Positions 1-8,083 of a DNA stretch of 64,000 nucleotides are shown here, piece after piece. Numbering within the stretch: the first letter of the stretch is position 1; each line of letters starts with the position of its first letter. The stretch is from Kordia antarctica (GTDB taxonomy: Bacteria > Bacteroidota > Bacteroidia > Flavobacteriales > Flavobacteriaceae). The notes beneath the pieces were generated by a model. That model was not told the origin of the DNA and did no database searches. It saw only the letters and a program-made list of their open reading frames with translations. Location of the stretch: positions 3,439,501 through 3,503,500 of the forward strand of contig NZ_CP019288.1 of NCBI RefSeq assembly GCF_009901525.1, in the 5' to 3' direction. The position numbers and the translations under genes are program-made.

Positions 1-1674
1 CTGAAAGAACGTTTAGAACGTCAACAAAAAGAATTAGAAAAGAATGAAAAGTTGATGGAAGAATTGAAGAAACTCGCTGAAAAAATAAGCGAAGAAGAAC
101 TTTCTGAAAAACTGGAGCAACTCGCAAAAAAACAACAAAACAGCAAAAAGAATTTACAGCAAATTGTAGAATTGACGAAACGCTTTTATGTAACGAAAAA
201 AGCGGAAAAGATTCAAAAGGAACTTGCTGAACTTGCGAAAGAACAAAAAGAACTTTCAGAAAAAAGTGGTGATGAAAACACCAAAGAGAAGCAAGAAGAG
301 CTCAATAAAAAGTTTGAAGATTTGCAAAAGCAAATGGACGATTTGGACAAAGAAAATGAGGAACTTAAAAAGCCAATTGATTTAGAACGTAAAAAAGAAG
401 AAGAAGAAGACATCAAAAAAGAGCAGGAAGATGCTTCTGATGATTTAGAAGAAAGTGAAAAATCTGAAGCAGAACAACAGAAAAGCGATAAACAAAAAAG
501 CGCCAAAAGCAAACAAAAGAAAGCTGCTCAAAAAATGCAGCGTATGAGTAAAGCGATGCAAAGTTCTATGCAAATGAGTGGCGAAGAAGGCATGAAAGAA
601 GACGCAGAAATGTTGCGCCAAATTTTAGATAATTTGGTTTTATTCTCGTTTGATGAAGAAAAACTAATGAAAGGTTTTCAAGAAATTGACAACACAAATG
701 CGAGTTATGCATCCAAGTTAAAACGTCAACAAGAACTTCGAAAAATGTTTGAACATGTAGATGATAGCTTGTTTGCATTGTCGTTGCGTCAGCCAAAAAT
801 CTCGGAACAAATTAATGGAGAAATTACAGATATCTATTTCAACATTGACAAATCAATGGAGTTATTAGCGGAAAACAATGTATATCGCGGTGTTGGAGCG
901 CAACAATATGCACTAACTGCTACCAATAAACTTGCCGATTTTCTAAGTAGCGCATTGGACAATATGCAACAAAGCATGGGACAAGGTCAAGGACAAGGTT
1001 CTTCTGGAATGGGACAAAGTGGACAAAACCAAGGGCAAGGAAAAGGGTTTCAGTTGCCTGATTTAATTCAGTCGCAAGAAGAATTGAACAAGCAAATGAA
1101 AGAAGGAGCAAAGCAAGAAGGTCAAGGAAAAGATGGAAAAGGCGGTAAGAAAGATGGCAAAGAAGAAGGCGAATCTGGTAAAGGTGGAAAAGACGGTAAA
1201 TCCGGAGAAAATGGTCAACAAGGTGGCGGATCTGGAAGCGGCGATGAAGATTCTTCAGGAAAACTATATGATATTTACAAACAACAACAAGCGTTGCGCG
1301 GTCAATTAGAACAGCAATTAAAAGATAAATACGGCGAGAAAATTGACAATCCACAAGCGAAAGAATTGCTAAAGCAAATGGAGCAAGTTGAAACGGAATT
1401 GCTAGAAAAAGGGTTCAATGATGAAACGATGAAAAAGATGATTGAACTCAAGTATAAATTGCAAAAACTGGATAAAGCTGCCTTCGAACAAGAAAAAGAA
1501 AACAAACGAGAATCTTCCTCAAATCGCAAGGATTTTACCAATACTACAAACGAGAAAATGCCTGATGTTAGACAGTATTTCAATCAAATTGAGATATTAA
1601 ACAGACAAGTATTACCTTTGCGCAATAATTACAAAAAGAAAGTACAAGAGTATTTCAAGAAAAAAGATGATTAG
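1..1674 (+). CDS. DUF4175 family protein, C-terminal part (5' end outside the window)
   Basis: The frame is open from base 1, so the gene starts upstream and only the last 557 codons are visible. The first 190 or so codons are Lys/Glu/Gln-rich and heptad-like, typical of long coiled coils. A Gly/Gln/Lys/Ser low-complexity stretch covers codons 324-417, followed by another charged helical region. Position directly before ybeY and mnmG, and the composition, match the large flavobacterial DUF4175 proteins (about 1,100 residues with N-terminal membrane helices, from family knowledge; those helices are not in this window). Molecular function is unknown. The stop codon region overlaps the ybeY start by 8 bases, so the two are probably co-transcribed. 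The family call rests on context and composition. Confidence 0.75.
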   Translation: MKERLERQQKELEKNEKLMEELKKLAEKISEEELSEKLEQLAKKQQNSKKNLQQIVELTKRFYVTKKAEKIQKELAELAKEQKELSEKSGDENTKEKQEELNKKFEDLQKQMDDLDKENEELKKPIDLERKKEEEEDIKKEQEDASDDLEESEKSEAEQQKSDKQKSAKSKQKKAAQKMQRMSKAMQSSMQMSGEEGMKEDAEMLRQILDNLVLFSFDEEKLMKGFQEIDNTNASYASKLKRQQELRKMFEHVDDSLFALSLRQPKISEQINGEITDIYFNIDKSMELLAENNVYRGVGAQQYALTATNKLADFLSSALDNMQQSMGQGQGQGSSGMGQSGQNQGQGKGFQLPDLIQSQEELNKQMKEGAKQEGQGKDGKGGKKDGKEEGESGKGGKDGKSGENGQQGGGSGSGDEDSSGKLYDIYKQQQALRGQLEQQLKDKYGEKIDNPQAKELLKQMEQVETELLEKGFNDETMKKMIELKYKLQKLDKAAFEQEKENKRESSSNRKDFTNTTNEKMPDVRQYFNQIEILNRQVLPLRNNYKKKVQEYFKKKDD

Positions 1675-2089
1675 TTTTAACTATGAAACCCAATTTGAAC
1701 TTCCAAATGAAGCGCAAATTGAATACTGGATTCGCAAGGTAATTGCATCGGAAAGTAAGCGTGAAGGAGAAATCAATTATATATTTTGTGACGATGCATA
1801 TTTGCACAAACTTAATGTAGAATTCCTCAATCATGATACGTTAACTGATATTATTAGTTTCGATAATACTGTGGGAAACGAATTACACGGAGACATTTTT
1901 ATTTCAGTAGAACGTGTTGCTGAAAATGCGAAAGATTTTGATGTTTTGTTCGATGAAGAACTCAAAAGAGTCATGGTTCACGGTGTATTACATTACTGTG
2001 GATTTAAAGATAAAACTGAAGAAGATCAGGCTGAAATGACAGCAAAGGAAAATGAAAAACTTGAAATGTTCCACGTGGAACAATCGTAA
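1667..2089 (+). CDS. ybeY: Endoribonuclease YbeY, rRNA maturation factor
   Basis: YbeY is a metal-dependent single-strand endoribonuclease acting in 16S rRNA 3' processing and ribosome quality control. The 140-residue length fits the family. The hallmark appears near residue 105 as HGVLHYCGFKD: two of the three metal-binding histidines are present, and the third position of the classic HGxLHxxGYDH motif is occupied by Asp. To my knowledge Bacteroidota members often show this form. The DISFD segment near residue 65 is also conserved. The start overlaps the end of the preceding gene. The last codons, encoding MFHVEQS, coincide with a perfect parS palindrome, so the C-terminal tail is dictated by a DNA site rather than by enzyme function. 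Confidence 0.93.
   Translation: MISFNYETQFELPNEAQIEYWIRKVIASESKREGEINYIFCDDAYLHKLNVEFLNHDTLTDIISFDNTVGNELHGDIFISVERVAENAKDFDVLFDEELKRVMVHGVLHYCGFKDKTEEDQAEMTAKENEKLEMFHVEQS
2067..2082. other. parS-like ParB binding site 1 (inside ybeY 3' end)
   Basis: TGTTCCACGTGGAACA is a perfect 16-bp palindrome. It differs from the consensus parS (TGTTTCACGTGAAACA) only at the symmetric T/C position and equals a variant known from other phyla. It lies within the last codons of ybeY. Two identical copies follow within 3 kb. Confidence 0.85.
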
Positions 2090-2148
2090 ATATCACTTAG
2101 AATACTTTCGAAAATTATATAAAAGTAAAGAAATTCAATCGTTAAGAT

Positions 2149-4020
2149 ATGTTTGAAAATGAATATGATGTAATCGTTGTTGGAGCAGGACATGCAGGTT
2201 CAGAAGCCGCAGCTGCAGCCGCAAACATGGGAAGCTCAACGTTACTTATTACAATGAACTTGCAAAACATTGCGCAAATGTCTTGTAATCCCGCGATGGG
2301 CGGAATTGCCAAAGGACAAATTGTGCGCGAAATTGATGCACTTGGTGGATATAGTGGAATTGTTACCGATGCATCTGCGATTCAATTTAAGATGCTAAAT
2401 AAATCTAAAGGTCCTGCAATGTGGTCGCCAAGAGCGCAAAGTGACCGAATGCGATTTGCAGAAGAATGGCGTTTGAAACTAGAATCAACTGAGAATTTAG
2501 ACTTTTATCAAGAAATGGTAAAAGGCTTAATCATTGAAGGCGGAAAAATTAAAGGTGTAAAAACTTCTTTAGGATTAGAAATAAGATCGAAAACTGTTGT
2601 CTTAACTAACGGAACTTTCCTAAACGGATTGATTCATATTGGAGATAAAAACTTCGGTGGTGGAAGAGCAGGAGAAAGAGCTGCCACAGGAATTACGGAA
2701 GAATTAGTAGCACTTGGGTTTGAATCGGGAAGAATGAAAACAGGAACGCCGCCACGAGTTGATGGACGTTCGTTAGATTATTCCAAGATGATAATTCAAC
2801 CTGGAGATGCAATTCCAGATAAGTTTTCATACTTAAAAGAAAGTAAACCTTTAGTAGAACAACGCGCATGCCACATGACACATACAAGTACTTTGGTGCA
2901 TGATTTATTGCGTGAAGGTTTTGACAGATCGCCAATGTTTAACGGAAGAATTCAATCGGTTGGACCAAGATATTGTCCTTCTATTGAAGATAAAATAAAT
3001 CGTTTTGCTGATAAAGATCGTCATCAATTATTCGTAGAACCAGAAGGTTGGAATACCTGTGAAGTTTATGTAAATGGGTTTTCTACTTCTTTGCCAGAAG
3101 ATGTTCAATTTAAAGCATTGCGTTCTGTGGTAGGATTTGAAAAGGTGAAGTTTTTTAGACCTGGTTATGCAATAGAATACGATTACTTTCCGCCAACACA
3201 ATTAAAGCATACATTAGAAACAAAGTTGGTTAACGGATTGTTTTTTGCAGGACAAATTAACGGAACAACTGGTTATGAAGAAGCAGCTTCTCAAGGATTA
3301 ATGGCTGGAATAAATGCTGCTTTGCAAGTGCAAGAAAGAGATGAATTTATCCTAAAAAGAAACGAAGCATATATTGGAGTTTTGGTTGATGATCTCATCA
3401 CAAAAGGAACTGAAGAACCTTATAGAATGTTTACTTCTCGAGCGGAATATAGAACATTATTGCGCCAAGATAATGCCGATTTTAGGTTAACTCCAGTTGG
3501 ACATAAACTCGGTTTAGCGAGTGAAGAAAGATTAAAAGCGATGGAACATAAGAAGACTTCCTCAGATGCTTTTATCCGATTTTTTCAAGAAACAAGTGTA
3601 AAACCAGAAGAAATTAATCCTGTTTTAGAAGCTAAAGATTCTGCTAAAGTGAAGCAGCAAGATAAGATGTTTAAGATATTTTCGCGTCCCAATATTAGTA
3701 TGGATGATATGAAACAAGTTGCTTCTGTTTCTCAATTTATTGAAGAACATCAATTGGATAAAGACGTCTTAGAACAGACAGAAGTTCAGATAAAATATGC
3801 TGGTTATATTAACAAAGAAAAGGCAAATGCTGATAAATTAAATAACCTCGATCGTGTCAAAATTCCAAAAGATTTTGAGTATGATGGTTTAACGAATTTG
3901 TCTTTAGAAGCACGCCAAAAGTTATCTAAAATACGTCCTGTAAACTTATCGCAAGCATCACGAATTAGTGGCGTTTCTCCAAGTGATATTAGTGTGATGT
4001 TAGTCTATTTGAAGAGATAA
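2149..4020 (+). CDS. mnmG: tRNA uridine-5-carboxymethylaminomethyl modification enzyme MnmG (GidA)
   Basis: MnmG, with MnmE, installs the cmnm5 group on U34 of several tRNAs using FAD, NADH and methylene-tetrahydrofolate. The 623 residues match the usual length of about 630. Visible are the FAD-binding GAGHAG at residues 13-18, the CNPAMGGIAKG segment with Cys46, the signature GGRAGERAATGI from about residue 173, the conserved Cys276 in YCPSIEDK, and the second signature GLFFAGQINGTTGYEEA near residue 365. The start 59 bases after ybeY is supported by the immediate Rossmann strand. In many bacteria gidA lies near oriC; here parS sites before and after the gene fit that. Confidence 0.97.
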   Translation: MFENEYDVIVVGAGHAGSEAAAAAANMGSSTLLITMNLQNIAQMSCNPAMGGIAKGQIVREIDALGGYSGIVTDASAIQFKMLNKSKGPAMWSPRAQSDRMRFAEEWRLKLESTENLDFYQEMVKGLIIEGGKIKGVKTSLGLEIRSKTVVLTNGTFLNGLIHIGDKNFGGGRAGERAATGITEELVALGFESGRMKTGTPPRVDGRSLDYSKMIIQPGDAIPDKFSYLKESKPLVEQRACHMTHTSTLVHDLLREGFDRSPMFNGRIQSVGPRYCPSIEDKINRFADKDRHQLFVEPEGWNTCEVYVNGFSTSLPEDVQFKALRSVVGFEKVKFFRPGYAIEYDYFPPTQLKHTLETKLVNGLFFAGQINGTTGYEEAASQGLMAGINAALQVQERDEFILKRNEAYIGVLVDDLITKGTEEPYRMFTSRAEYRTLLRQDNADFRLTPVGHKLGLASEERLKAMEHKKTSSDAFIRFFQETSVKPEEINPVLEAKDSAKVKQQDKMFKIFSRPNISMDDMKQVASVSQFIEEHQLDKDVLEQTEVQIKYAGYINKEKANADKLNNLDRVKIPKDFEYDGLTNLSLEARQKLSKIRPVNLSQASRISGVSPSDISVMLVYLKR

Positions 4021-4029
4021 ATTACTAAG

Positions 4030-4045
4030 TGTTCCACGTGGAACA
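4030..4045. other. parS-like ParB binding site 2 (mnmG / GNAT intergenic)
   Basis: A second perfect TGTTCCACGTGGAACA palindrome, 9 bases after the mnmG stop and 8 bases before the next start codon. It occupies nearly the whole 33-base gap between the two genes. Confidence 0.85.
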
Positions 4046-4053
4046 ATCTACAT

Positions 4054-4881
4054 ATGAAAATACAATCATTAGAAAACACGCCTGTTGAAGAGATCATAAA
4101 GACCTTGAATCTGGCGTTTTCTGATTATTTAATCCCTATCAATTTTACGCTCGATTATGTGAACGAACGCTGGACAGCTTCCGGCGTAGATTACAGTTTG
4201 TCGTTTGGTGTTTTTGACAATGAGAAATTAGTCGGGTTCATCATTCATGCGATAAATAGGTATGGAGATTCGAAAGTCGCGTTTAACGCTTCTACAGGAA
4301 TTATTCCGACACATCGTAGAAAAGGCCTGTTGACGAAATTATATTCAACCGCGATTCCAACGTTAAAAGAAAATGGAATTCAAGTAAGCACATTGGAAGT
4401 AATTACAGAAAATGAACGCGCCATTTTAGCATATCAAAAAGTAGGTTTCAAAATTGATCGTCAATATAAATTATACAAATTCAATTGGGAACAAAAAGAA
4501 ATTGAATCGGAACTCGAAGTTGAAATGAATGCTGATTTCGATTTTGAAACATTCGAACATTTACAAAACTATTTTCCTTCATTAGAAAATCAAAATCATT
4601 GTTTGGAAAAGCTTAAAAAAAGTTTAGTTTCGATTTCAATTTTTGATAAAAAAGAAATCGTTGCATATTTAATTTTTCATAAAACTTCAAATAGAATTCA
4701 TCGATTAGGTGTAAAAGAAAATGATTGGAATAGTTTTGGTGAAATTTTATTTTCAGGGTTGGCATCAGGAAATTATAATATTATAAATATTGACACTAAT
4801 AATAATAATATTCACAGTTTTTTCAAAAAGATGAAGTTCGAAAATTACATTGATCAATATGATATGAGTCTGGAATTTTGA
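4054..4881 (+). CDS. GNAT family N-acetyltransferase
   Basis: A 275-residue protein whose N-terminal half is a GNAT fold: the acetyl-CoA pyrophosphate loop appears as PTHRRKGLL at about residues 85-93, followed by a helix and then ENERAILAYQKVGF at about residues 120-135, the usual end of the fold. The C-terminal half from about residue 150 is more diverged and may be a second, degenerate acetyltransferase domain, since it ends in a similar FFKKMKFE segment. The substrate cannot be told from sequence. It follows mnmG by 33 bases containing a parS site and is probably read through from upstream. Confidence 0.8.
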   Translation: MKIQSLENTPVEEIIKTLNLAFSDYLIPINFTLDYVNERWTASGVDYSLSFGVFDNEKLVGFIIHAINRYGDSKVAFNASTGIIPTHRRKGLLTKLYSTAIPTLKENGIQVSTLEVITENERAILAYQKVGFKIDRQYKLYKFNWEQKEIESELEVEMNADFDFETFEHLQNYFPSLENQNHCLEKLKKSLVSISIFDKKEIVAYLIFHKTSNRIHRLGVKENDWNSFGEILFSGLASGNYNIINIDTNNNNIHSFFKKMKFENYIDQYDMSLEF

Positions 4882-5066
4882 ATTATAAATGATGAATTAT
4901 AAATTTTGTTTGTTGAATAATTATTAAATAGAATTTTACAGAATAGAGGATTTGAATAACAATTATCAAATCGTTTTAGATTATTAAATAATCAACTTTG
5001 AACCTAAAACTTTAAACCTTGAATTTTATAAGTTAATTTGAGATTGACGATATATAAAACATCAAT

Positions 5067-5082
5067 TGTTCCACGTGGAACA
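5067..5082. other. parS-like ParB binding site 3 (upstream of the methyltransferase)
   Basis: The third perfect TGTTCCACGTGGAACA, 29 bases before the next start codon, in an AT-rich 230-base gap. Spacings between the three sites are 1,963 and 1,037 bp. I found no other perfect copy in the remaining 59 kb. Confidence 0.85.
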
Positions 5083-5111: not shown

Positions 5112-5954
5112 ATGGATAACATTACGGTAAAAGATCATTCTGTTTCTGGTGAAGAATTTCAGCTTGTGTTTGACGACGTTTTGGAAATGTACAAAACCGA
5201 ACCGCAACCAAGTTTGGACAAATTACCTTCCTATTACCAAAGCGAAGATTATATTTCACATACCGATACGAAGCGGAATTTATTCGAAAAAATATACCAT
5301 TGGGTTCGTACATATATGCTTTCTAAAAAAATGGCGTTGGTAGATTTGCATACGAATAGTGATGGAAAAAAAGTGCTAGATATTGGTTGCGGAACTGGAG
5401 ACTTTTTGGCAATGGCTCAAAAATACAACTGGAATATTTCTGGTGTTGAACCTGACGCTGAAGCTCGGAAAATTGCTTCTGAGAAAACATCAATCGAGAT
5501 TCATGACAACAATTGGCTTTCCAAAATTTCCGACGATAGTTTTGATGCAATTACCATGTGGCATGTGTTAGAACATGTTCCTAACTTAGAGGAACAAATT
5601 GCGATGCTGAAACGAATTGTAAAACCAACTGGAAGTATTTTCATTGCCGTTCCAAATTTTAAAAGTCATGATGCAACTCATTACAAAGAACTTTGGGCAG
5701 CGTTTGATGTGCCGAGACACCTTTGGCATTTCTCACAAAAATCTATCACAGAACTATTTTCAAAGGAAAACATGAAAGTAGTAAAAATCTTACCAATGAA
5801 ATTTGATGCGTATTATGTGAGTTTACTTTCTGAAAAACACAAAACCGGAAAGATGAATCCTGTAAAAGCATTTTATAGAGGATTTGTCTCAAATTTTAAA
5901 GCGATGAATAGTTCGGAGTATTCTTCATTGATTTACGTAATCAAGAACGACTAA
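5112..5954 (+). CDS. Class I SAM-dependent methyltransferase
   Basis: The 280-residue protein has the SAM-binding motif I VLDIGCGTGDFL at residues 88-99 and a post-motif II/III block with DAITMWHVLEHVPN near residue 145, typical of the methyltransferase-11 type. About 80 residues precede the SAM domain and carry YYQSEDYISH, a feature shared with the Bacteroidota group whose members modify small molecules or cell-surface lipids and sugars. The exact substrate is unknown. It is preceded by parS site 3, and the 304-base gap downstream separates it from the OmpH-like gene. Confidence 0.85.
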   Translation: MDNITVKDHSVSGEEFQLVFDDVLEMYKTEPQPSLDKLPSYYQSEDYISHTDTKRNLFEKIYHWVRTYMLSKKMALVDLHTNSDGKKVLDIGCGTGDFLAMAQKYNWNISGVEPDAEARKIASEKTSIEIHDNNWLSKISDDSFDAITMWHVLEHVPNLEEQIAMLKRIVKPTGSIFIAVPNFKSHDATHYKELWAAFDVPRHLWHFSQKSITELFSKENMKVVKILPMKFDAYYVSLLSEKHKTGKMNPVKAFYRGFVSNFKAMNSSEYSSLIYVIKND

Positions 5955-6258: not shown

Positions 6259-6780
6259 ATGAAAAAATTAATCGTTTTGGCAATTGCCGCACTCGGATTG
6301 TATTCTTGTCAGGAATCTGCAAAAATTGCTTTTGTTGACAATTCTGAATTAATCAACGAATACCAAGAGAAAAAAGATTTAGAAGGAAAGTTTACTACAA
6401 TTATTGACGGTTTCAATAAAAGAAAAGACAGCATGCAACAAATGTTTAATCTTGAATTGAAACAAGCGCAAGAAACTGCTGCAAAAGCTTCTCCAAAAAA
6501 ACAACAAGAATTATCGGTTAAAATTCAACAATTGGGTGAACGTTTGGATCAGCAAATCAAAATTGAGCAAAATCGTATTTCTGAAGAGAGCAGAACGCAA
6601 AATGATTCTTTGGTAAGCAGCGTGAAAAAATTTGTTGCCGAATACGGAGAAACAAATGGATACGATTATATTTTAGGTAAAAATGAATTTACAGGAAATA
6701 TGTATTACGGAAAAGAAAAGCATGATATTACGAAAGCTGTTTTAGAAGCGTTGAATAAAAAGTACGCAGATAAAAAGTAA
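6259..6780 (+). CDS. OmpH/Skp family periplasmic chaperone-like lipoprotein
   Basis: The N-terminus is a lipoprotein signal: Lys-Lys, a hydrophobic core and the lipobox LYSC with Cys17. The mature part begins KIAFVDNSELINEY, the short beta strand that opens OmpH/Skp proteins, followed by a long Gln/Lys/Glu-rich coiled coil (about residues 45-125) and a C-terminal GYDYILGKNE segment typical of the family. Length 173 fits Skp-like proteins (160-180). Skp holds unfolded outer-membrane proteins; a lipid-anchored form would act at a membrane face. It has its own promoter and a terminator 24 bases after the stop, so it is monocistronic. Confidence 0.85.
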   Translation: MKKLIVLAIAALGLYSCQESAKIAFVDNSELINEYQEKKDLEGKFTTIIDGFNKRKDSMQQMFNLELKQAQETAAKASPKKQQELSVKIQQLGERLDQQIKIEQNRISEESRTQNDSLVSSVKKFVAEYGETNGYDYILGKNEFTGNMYYGKEKHDITKAVLEALNKKYADKK

Positions 6781-6853: not shown

Positions 6854-7549
6854 TTATAATTCGAGTATTTTTTGAAGCTTATCAATAATTAATTCTCTTC
6901 GGTCTTTCGCTGTATAAGGATTTATATGACACTCTATAATTTCATTTCTGGAAGAATGAAATAGTATATGTTCACTCATTTCTTTCAAAAATACTTGAAC
7001 GTCTTCTTCTGCATTTTTCACATCTTTAAGTAAGTCAATATTATTGTCAATTATATGGATTATATCTTCAAAGTCATGACTTGTTCTATGATCTTTTCCT
7101 CTGCCTTTAAATGCTTCCCATTTTGTAGCTAGAAATAAACTAACGGGTAAAATGTGAATCTCTGCATTGCCAATTTTAACTGGATACGCTTTTTCAAAAC
7201 CAGGTTTTAACCAACTATTTGTTGGCCCAAGAGCAGTTTGTTCCCACGGAATAAAATCAATCAGTATTTTATCATACGTATAACGATATATTACAGTTTC
7301 AGTTTGTGCTGGATAAATCTTTTTAGTAGCTAATTTTTCTCTCAGTTCTTCCATTTGAGAATACGTACTTATTTGAACAGAAATGTCAATATCTTTAGTT
7401 GGTCTTGGTTGTTCTGCACTTTCATCTGTAACATACAAACTCACTACAGCGCCGCCAACATAAATAACTTCTTTATTAAGTTCTCCTAATGCTAAAGCAA
7501 CTTTTTCAACTACTTTTAAGTTTATTATTTGATTTTTAAGCATGCTCAA
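6854..7549 (-). CDS. AbiEii-like nucleotidyltransferase, putative toxin
   Basis: The 231-residue protein has the nucleotidyltransferase beta-fold signature: VGGAVVSLYV (Gly32-Gly33) followed by KDIDISV with Asp53 and Asp55, and a likely third acidic residue Asp98 in ILIDFIPWE. A later block, ATKWEAF with Lys143 and then SHDFEDI around residue 160, matches the K...(R/K)DxxD pattern of AbiEii/AbiGii-type (DUF1814-related) enzymes. Known AbiEii toxins modify tRNA or other targets and are held in check by a winged-HTH partner. Here the gene starts inside the end of such an HTH gene (14-base overlap), so the two are translationally coupled. Toxicity is inference from family and layout. Confidence 0.7.
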   Translation of the reverse strand: MSMLKNQIINLKVVEKVALALGELNKEVIYVGGAVVSLYVTDESAEQPRPTKDIDISVQISTYSQMEELREKLATKKIYPAQTETVIYRYTYDKILIDFIPWEQTALGPTNSWLKPGFEKAYPVKIGNAEIHILPVSLFLATKWEAFKGRGKDHRTSHDFEDIIHIIDNNIDLLKDVKNAEEDVQVFLKEMSEHILFHSSRNEIIECHINPYTAKDRRELIIDKLQKILEL

Positions 7550-8054
7550 TTCTTTCTTTTAATAAATTAAAAGCAATAGTTTGCTCCCTAACTTTTCCAA
7601 TTCTTATAGCGTCTGTTAAAGCCATTAATTCGTAATATTTTTTGTCTTTTAGACAAGCTTCAGGTGTTTTTGGATGAAGCGGCTCAATGACCTGACCTCT
7701 TATTTTTCCTTGTCCATAAGCCCAAACAAATCGGTCAACACTTACAATTTCATTATTCAATGGACTTGCAGAAATAGAAGTGCCAATACCTCTAACCATT
7801 GCGCCTGGACGTTGTGGATACACATATCGTAACCCAGATTTCAGAAAATCTAAAAGTGCTAACTTATGAAGTGTTTTTTTATCACTACTAATTAAACCTC
7901 CAATTACTGATCGGTTTATACTTTCGCTTATTTCGCTAGAACTAATATGAAGTTCATACGCCAAGTCTTTCATGTACCATTTTTCTTGTCCTTTACTTGC
8001 AATTTTGAGAAGAATAGCAATGTCGTGAGGACGCATACCATTATGCTGTTTCAT
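7536..8054 (-). CDS. Small winged-HTH protein, putative antitoxin and autorepressor
   Basis: I place the start at ATG 8054 (172 residues). A longer TTG-started reading from 8078 would begin inside the promoter -7 box, so I reject it. The N-terminal 70 residues form a MarR/winged-HTH-like fold (WYMKDLAYELHISSSEISESINR, quoted in part as LAYELHISSSEIS, recognition helix following). The remaining 100 residues are of unknown fold and contain YVYPQRPGAMVRGIGT and an MALTDAIRIGKVRE helix. It precedes and overlaps the nucleotidyltransferase gene, as AbiEi precedes AbiEii. A 26-bp palindrome covers the region just upstream of its promoter. Function as antitoxin and repressor is inferred from this layout. 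Confidence 0.65.
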   Translation of the reverse strand: MKQHNGMRPHDIAILLKIASKGQEKWYMKDLAYELHISSSEISESINRSVIGGLISSDKKTLHKLALLDFLKSGLRYVYPQRPGAMVRGIGTSISASPLNNEIVSVDRFVWAYGQGKIRGQVIEPLHPKTPEACLKDKKYYELMALTDAIRIGKVREQTIAFNLLKERIEHA

Positions 8055-8075
8055 AACTTGAATCTTTATTCTTAT

Positions 8076-8083
8076 CAAAGATA
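8076..8083 (-). promoter_or_regulatory. -7 box (TATCTTTG) of the HTH-nucleotidyltransferase operon
   Basis: On the minus strand TATCTTTG matches TAnnTTTG exactly. Transcription would begin near 8069, about 15 bases before the ATG at 8054. Confidence 0.5.

Follow-up and report, generated by a model that had tools for sequence, protein, structure and literature searches.

Three parS palindromes around mnmG as the probable origin-proximal centromere of Kordia antarctica

Why should three identical 16-bp palindromes surround mnmG in a chromosome whose dnaA gene lies elsewhere, and do they mark the place from which this chromosome is replicated and segregated? In this study, we examined a stretch of 64,000 nucleotides from Kordia antarctica (contig NZ_CP019288.1, positions 3,439,501 to 3,503,500; hereafter the window, to which coordinates refer unless they are given as chromosome positions), for which a preliminary description had proposed a likely origin-proximal centromere around mnmG. 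Our analysis supports this proposal through the clustering of the sites, a parAB gene pair, nucleotide skew, the polarity of rRNA genes and conservation among relatives. We are confident that the three palindromes are parS sites, forming the predicted centromere on which a chromosomal ParABS segregation system acts.

Perfect copies of TGTTCCACGTGGAACA were found at 2067–2082, inside the last codons of ybeY, at 4030–4045, in the intergenic gap between mnmG and a GNAT acetyltransferase gene and directly past the mnmG stop codon, and at 5067–5082, in the intergenic gap between the GNAT gene and a methyltransferase gene; no strand is assigned to any of them. The 64-kb window contains no further match with up to three mismatches, and dinucleotide shuffles of the window gave at this threshold a mean of 0.25 and a maximum of two matches, with none of 100 shuffles reaching three. 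In the whole chromosome, a single contig of 5,500,985 bp, the sequence occurs at up to two mismatches nowhere besides these three copies, which are confined to 3,016 bp, and the reversed pattern used as a control gave no match at the same threshold. The probability that three independent sites fall within 3,016 bp on this chromosome is approximately 9e-7. Thus, the earlier statements that the window holds only these three copies and that chance clustering is negligible are both correct, and an even scatter of copies over the genome was not seen. The parS consensus is given as TGTTTCACGTGAAACA, with two mismatches allowed, in PMC10197239 (for this and all other papers cited, our statements refer to excerpts of the source), and the three exact copies of the Kordia 16-bp palindrome conform to it. 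The three palindromes around mnmG are very probably docking sites for ParB.

The genome also encodes the proteins expected to act on such sites. A parA gene (254 aa product) adjoins a parB gene (301 aa product) at about 5.12 Mb of the chromosome, 1.68 Mb from the parS sites, so that the absence of parB, which would have spoken against a centromere and was assessed by profile search, does not apply. ParB is the single TIGR00180 match in the genome, scores above the cut-off and contains the N-terminal ParB_N domain, the helix-turn-helix domain HTH_ParB and the dimerisation domain ParB_C; its partner is an AAA_31 protein that qualifies as a ParA ATPase. Aligned to the Stage 0 sporulation protein J chain of structure 6sdk, the B. 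subtilis protein, the recognition region of ParB has the sequence GKKRSTIANYLRLLK...SMGHGR. Arginine and glycine occupy the two positions that discriminate ParB from Noc, as expected for parS-type specificity; these residues were located by motif. It has been reported that this arginine and glycine are absolutely conserved in ParB, with glutamine and arginine in Noc (PMC7383237). By analogy with ParABS systems in which the mechanism is established, the ParB protein encoded in the distant parAB operon would bind each 16-mer through its helix-turn-helix, load as a CTP-dependent clamp and slide into the flanking DNA, and ParA would then move the ParB–parS complex so that newly copied origins separate.

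The position of the palindromes is kept in most of the relatives examined. The sequence TGTTYCACGTGRAACA is present in 75 of 99 genomes, including that of K. antarctica, and all ten relatives of the same genus have three clustered parS copies. The 14-bp parS core, GTTYCACGTGRAAC, was sought with up to 1.5 kb per side at 90 Flavobacteriales mnmG loci; these come from the 98 genomes with mnmG after exclusion of K. antarctica itself, G077, three f14 genomes and three genomes in which a contig end cuts mnmG. The core stands upstream of mnmG in 74 loci and downstream in 78; 81 loci have it on at least one side and 71 have it on both (57/58 and 56/58 in the family of the window). Among 80 loci of named MnmG proteins, from genomes that partly overlap this set, it was found on at least one side in 79 and on both sides in 67, the sole locus lacking it being from a Capnocytophaga metagenome-assembled genome; the closest named match of the K. 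antarctica MnmG is from a Kordia sp. (91%). In 18 loci of the family (17 relatives and our own), the words of parS exceed all other non-coding words in enrichment by a wide margin. As far as can be told from the sampled genomes, the mnmG–parS arrangement is conserved through most of the order.

An alternative is that the palindromes are transcription-factor operators regulating ybeY, mnmG and their neighbours; in its favour, the sites flank mnmG in most relatives and a ybeY match lies on the mnmG strand in 87 of the 90 loci. We regard this explanation as very unlikely. Sites are found on either side of mnmG. Where a ybeY match is present, there are 76 upstream sites, 29 of them within the coding end of ybeY and 47 in the gap from ybeY to mnmG (that of G049 follows the stop codon and was counted with the latter), so that the palindrome is retained both within the gene and in the gap. 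In K. antarctica, the first site is read as the codons ATG TTC CAC GTG GAA CAA (MFHVEQ), and the product of ybeY (an rRNA maturation RNase gene; 1667–2089, plus strand; TIGR00043, 109 bits; PF02130) ends in MFHVEQS. In one relative, G027, three parS sites (locus L224, approximately 8.5–10.8 kb) are found 278 kb from mnmG, around the methyltransferase and OmpH genes. Their placement, together with the occurrence of sites within or outside ybeY, favours a centromere over an mnmG operator; moreover, the sequence is that of the ParB palindrome, in a genome with a ParB of parS-type specificity.

Is the predicted centromere also close to the origin of replication? Skew was measured at 4-fold degenerate sites with the mean coding-strand bias removed. 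The sample comprised the window and 80 stretches of 20 kb, which together cover about 30% of the genome; a fit with two breakpoints was made over 1,095 open frames, with 300 permutations for significance and bootstrap 95% intervals. The raw GC skew of the 20-kb stretches had been considered and was set aside as confounded by gene strand. The TA skew places the origin at 3.41 Mb of the chromosome (95% interval 3.32–3.47 Mb; score 290.9 versus a permutation maximum of 182.3), with the parS sites at 3.44 Mb; GC and TA skew combined give 3.42 Mb (3.05–3.46 Mb; 475.0 versus 311.7), and GC skew, TA skew and gene strand together give 3.37 Mb (3.00–3.55 Mb). A skew origin far from the locus, which would have contradicted the preliminary description, was therefore not observed. 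The cumulative skew over 183.5 kb around the sites is noisy and places the switch no finer than tens of kb.

The orientation of the 16S rRNA genes points to the same place. From 43 listed matches in 19 relatives, we removed five that were fragments of genes counted elsewhere in the list and a single match from a genome of two contigs; with the two K. antarctica genes added, the set holds 39 matches (five of them partial) in 17 genomes. G003 and G097 were without a match, and since scoring was limited to 12 candidates per genome, copies may have been missed. With the origin set at mnmG, or for G027 at the parS cluster itself, all 39 matches are codirectional with replication, as compared with 14/39 from parB and 5/39 from dnaA. 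When the assumed origin was slid along the chromosome, the count stayed at 39 for an offset of 0 or +0.05 of the genome, fell to 38 for −0.05 or +0.10, and was zero at a half turn. The probability that random origins fit all matches is approximately 6e-8 with the genomes taken as independent, and relatedness makes the real value larger.

A third line of evidence comes from the terminus. A dif-like 28-mer lies at chromosome position 564,137, inside the interval of the skew terminus (0.38–0.69 Mb for TA) and 2.62 and 2.88 Mb from parS along the two arms. Its ends were chosen by analogy with E. coli dif, and a counterpart was sought in one relative, G003 of the same genus, in a 400-kb region that surrounds the point opposite mnmG/parS. 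There the 28-mer is present with two mismatches at 4,042,632, only 38 kb away from this antipode; the next-best match has seven mismatches, both in this region and in 1.6 Mb of K. antarctica sequence. The search with the dif consensus that led to the 28-mer gave three matches versus four in the reversed control and is no proof by itself, so that the support for the site comes from the G003 counterpart near the antipode and not from the consensus. The position of this putative dif site nearly opposite parS agrees with an origin at parS/mnmG. Taken together, the 4-fold-site skew, the 16S polarity in 17 genomes and the dif-like site in two genomes bear out an origin-proximal position of the cluster.

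The same results decide against the idea that the sites are parS without being origin markers and that replication starts at dnaA. In many bacteria dnaA is the usual origin marker, and the K. antarctica contig starts near this gene, a single copy at chromosome positions 2838–4232 and 2.06 Mb from the parS sites. However, just 5 of the 39 16S matches are codirectional from dnaA, both skew sums become negative when the origin is assumed there, and the dif-like site does not lie opposite dnaA, from which it is separated by 0.56 Mb. We therefore give this possibility even less weight than the operator explanation. An adjacency of dnaA to parS was not seen in the genomes compared: in 19 single-contig genomes, dnaA lies at 0.47–0.99 of the half-chromosome from parS (mean 0.75) and beyond 0.5 in 17 of them, so that dnaA, with which the preliminary description had suggested comparing the sites, is not a neighbour of the origin in these genomes. 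These distances differ from a uniform distribution with a Kolmogorov–Smirnov p of 1.6e-4, calculated with rounded genome sizes and with kinship ignored; five further single-contig f14 genomes had no DnaA above the cut-off and are outside this count. In the same 19 genomes, parB lies at 0.18–0.92 of the half-chromosome from parS (mean 0.62) and beyond 0.5 in 16, the better of two matches having been used for G026 and G036. An oriC at a great distance from dnaA has been described as common in Bacteroidetes (PMC4755523).

Several observations weigh against an origin-proximal parS centromere and have to be set beside this evidence. GC skew alone stays below the permutation maximum (194.8 versus 195.6; origin 3.43 Mb, 95% interval 2.68–3.87 Mb), as does gene strand alone (219 versus 231; origin 3.52 Mb, 2.26–3.77 Mb), and the skew analysis covers only about 30% of the genome. 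The parS core is absent near mnmG in nine of the 90 loci, of which six belong to family f9 and two to f14, the ninth being that of G027. A search of the open-access literature, by titles and the starts of abstracts, revealed among the matches listed no report of ParB binding for K. antarctica; in the same matches none was found of ParB binding in Flavobacteriia or of parS sites bracketing mnmG. In the 183.5 kb around the sites, a search for DnaA boxes (consensus TTATCCACA, up to one mismatch allowed) found a single exact copy, and two boxes were the most that any 500-bp stretch contained. Finally, the top NCBIfam match of ParB is the Noc model (nucleoid_noc, 240 bits). It is hardly credible that this protein, encoded at 5.12 Mb, acts in nucleoid occlusion as Noc does and that the sites serve division-site control instead of segregation, since these 240 bits are under the Noc cut-off of 315, the discriminating positions hold arginine and glycine where Noc has glutamine and arginine, the gene lies beside parA, and the sites carry parS letters and are clustered rather than spread round the chromosome.

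As no DnaA-box cluster was detected, the origin is placed here as a region and not as an exact oriC. Among the 20-kb loci of 20 relatives, DnaA boxes are mostly at or near the level of five shuffles each; they are clearly above it in G074 (four in 400 bp) and G027 (five), in each case some kb, at differing distances, from parS, while G054 has three versus a shuffle maximum of two and G057 three versus three. A motif-free search for words near the sites returned mainly parS, the best unrelated words being less than 9-fold enriched against a background taken from the K. antarctica genome only.

The preliminary description had also mentioned that parS clusters of other phyla seed SMC loading. Loading of an SMC condensin at the cluster is unsupported in the K. 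antarctica genome, because none of five weak matches to the SMC_prok_B profile is above the model cut-off; SMC_hinge gave none (it was detected in 10 of 14 control genomes, Caulobacter being missed), and ScpA, ScpB and MksB were not searched. The best SMC_prok_B match, at 36.5 bits, is the JetC protein of a Wadjet-type locus and not a chromosomal condensin. This locus, L207 at about 2.14 Mb, encodes JetC and JetD (PADLOC JetC1, 1060 bits; JetD1, 330 bits).

In 17 of the 19 single-contig Flavobacteriales genomes dnaA is in the terminus half of the chromosome, and in the other two it is at the edge of this half. This location may reflect inherited gene order or selection for a low dnaA dosage. 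We mention as an improbable but wider idea that the ancestral origin region was dismantled in the Flavobacteriales, so that of its classical members only mnmG and parS are left, dnaA and parB having mostly moved into the terminus half and no SMC being loaded; parS would then be the sole shared cis element, and ParB–parS, as the main origin landmark, might help to fix where replication or the replisome starts.

The genes between and beyond the sites are all on the plus strand: mnmG (gidA), between sites 1 and 2, at 2149–4020 (TIGR00136, 848 bits); the GNAT acetyltransferase gene at 4054–4881 (PF00583); the class I S-adenosylmethionine methyltransferase gene at 5112–5954 (PF13489); and an OmpH/Skp-like gene at 6259–6780 (PF03938). 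Judged by tblastn in the 20-kb loci of relatives, a methyltransferase match is present in 20/20 and an OmpH/Skp-like match in 16/20, and a GNAT gene lies between mnmG and the methyltransferase gene in both same-genus loci and in none of the 18 loci from other genera. Because the GNAT gene is without a match in these 18 loci, its insertion probably brought in or prompted the third parS site. Two paired genes lie at 6854–8078 on the minus strand. The first matches the AbiEii nucleotidyltransferase family (PF08843, 25.6 bits), the second matches no Pfam family, and the pair, close to the centromere, is possibly toxin–antitoxin-like. In another relative (G068, locus L092), two identical parS-like palindromes at 1251 and 1478 have both outer letters swapped together (AGTTTCACGTGAAACT), which suggests that in the family of G068 a change in the outer pair of parS is possible.

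These findings have practical consequences. The parS sites at mnmG offer an origin finder for Flavobacteriales assemblies that needs sequence only, where dnaA misleads, and the cluster provides a 3-kb target for ParB–parS work in this class. A lineage with ParB–parS and with no SMC found so far would make it possible to study the contribution of ParB by itself to segregation, and G027 represents a natural experiment on what parS sites follow.

How do the Kordia sites compare with known systems? They resemble the ParABS (Spo0J/ParB–parS) systems of Bacillus, Caulobacter and Pseudomonas in the palindrome family, the parS-type ParB residues, the ParA partner and the clustering at the origin. In these model species parAB and dnaA are near the origin, whereas in Kordia parAB and dnaA are 1.68 Mb and 2.06 Mb from the sites, and there is no SMC match above the cut-off. 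The OMM12 gut bacteria are not Flavobacteriales. A Hi-C study of these bacteria, including two Bacteroidetes, has used parS clusters as markers of the origin, reported that the origin is not systematically found with dnaA, and detected no homologs of known condensins in the two Bacteroidetes (PMC10197239); Kordia is similar in having a parS cluster at the origin, dnaA apart and no condensin found, and a bracketing of mnmG by parS was not met in the excerpts of that paper. In Mariniflexile (PMC11278836) and Algorimicrobium (PMC12843772), both Flavobacteriaceae, Ori-Finder predicted oriC at mnmG, with no mention of parS in the excerpts; in the former, dnaA has been noted to be out of line with GC skew. 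The text of PMC11278836 places oriC at mnmG and ter at leuB, and the legend of its Figure 3 swaps the two labels. Judged by these comparisons, the predicted ParABS centromere of the Kordia chromosome belongs to a known kind; less familiar is that its sites bracket mnmG at a great distance from dnaA.

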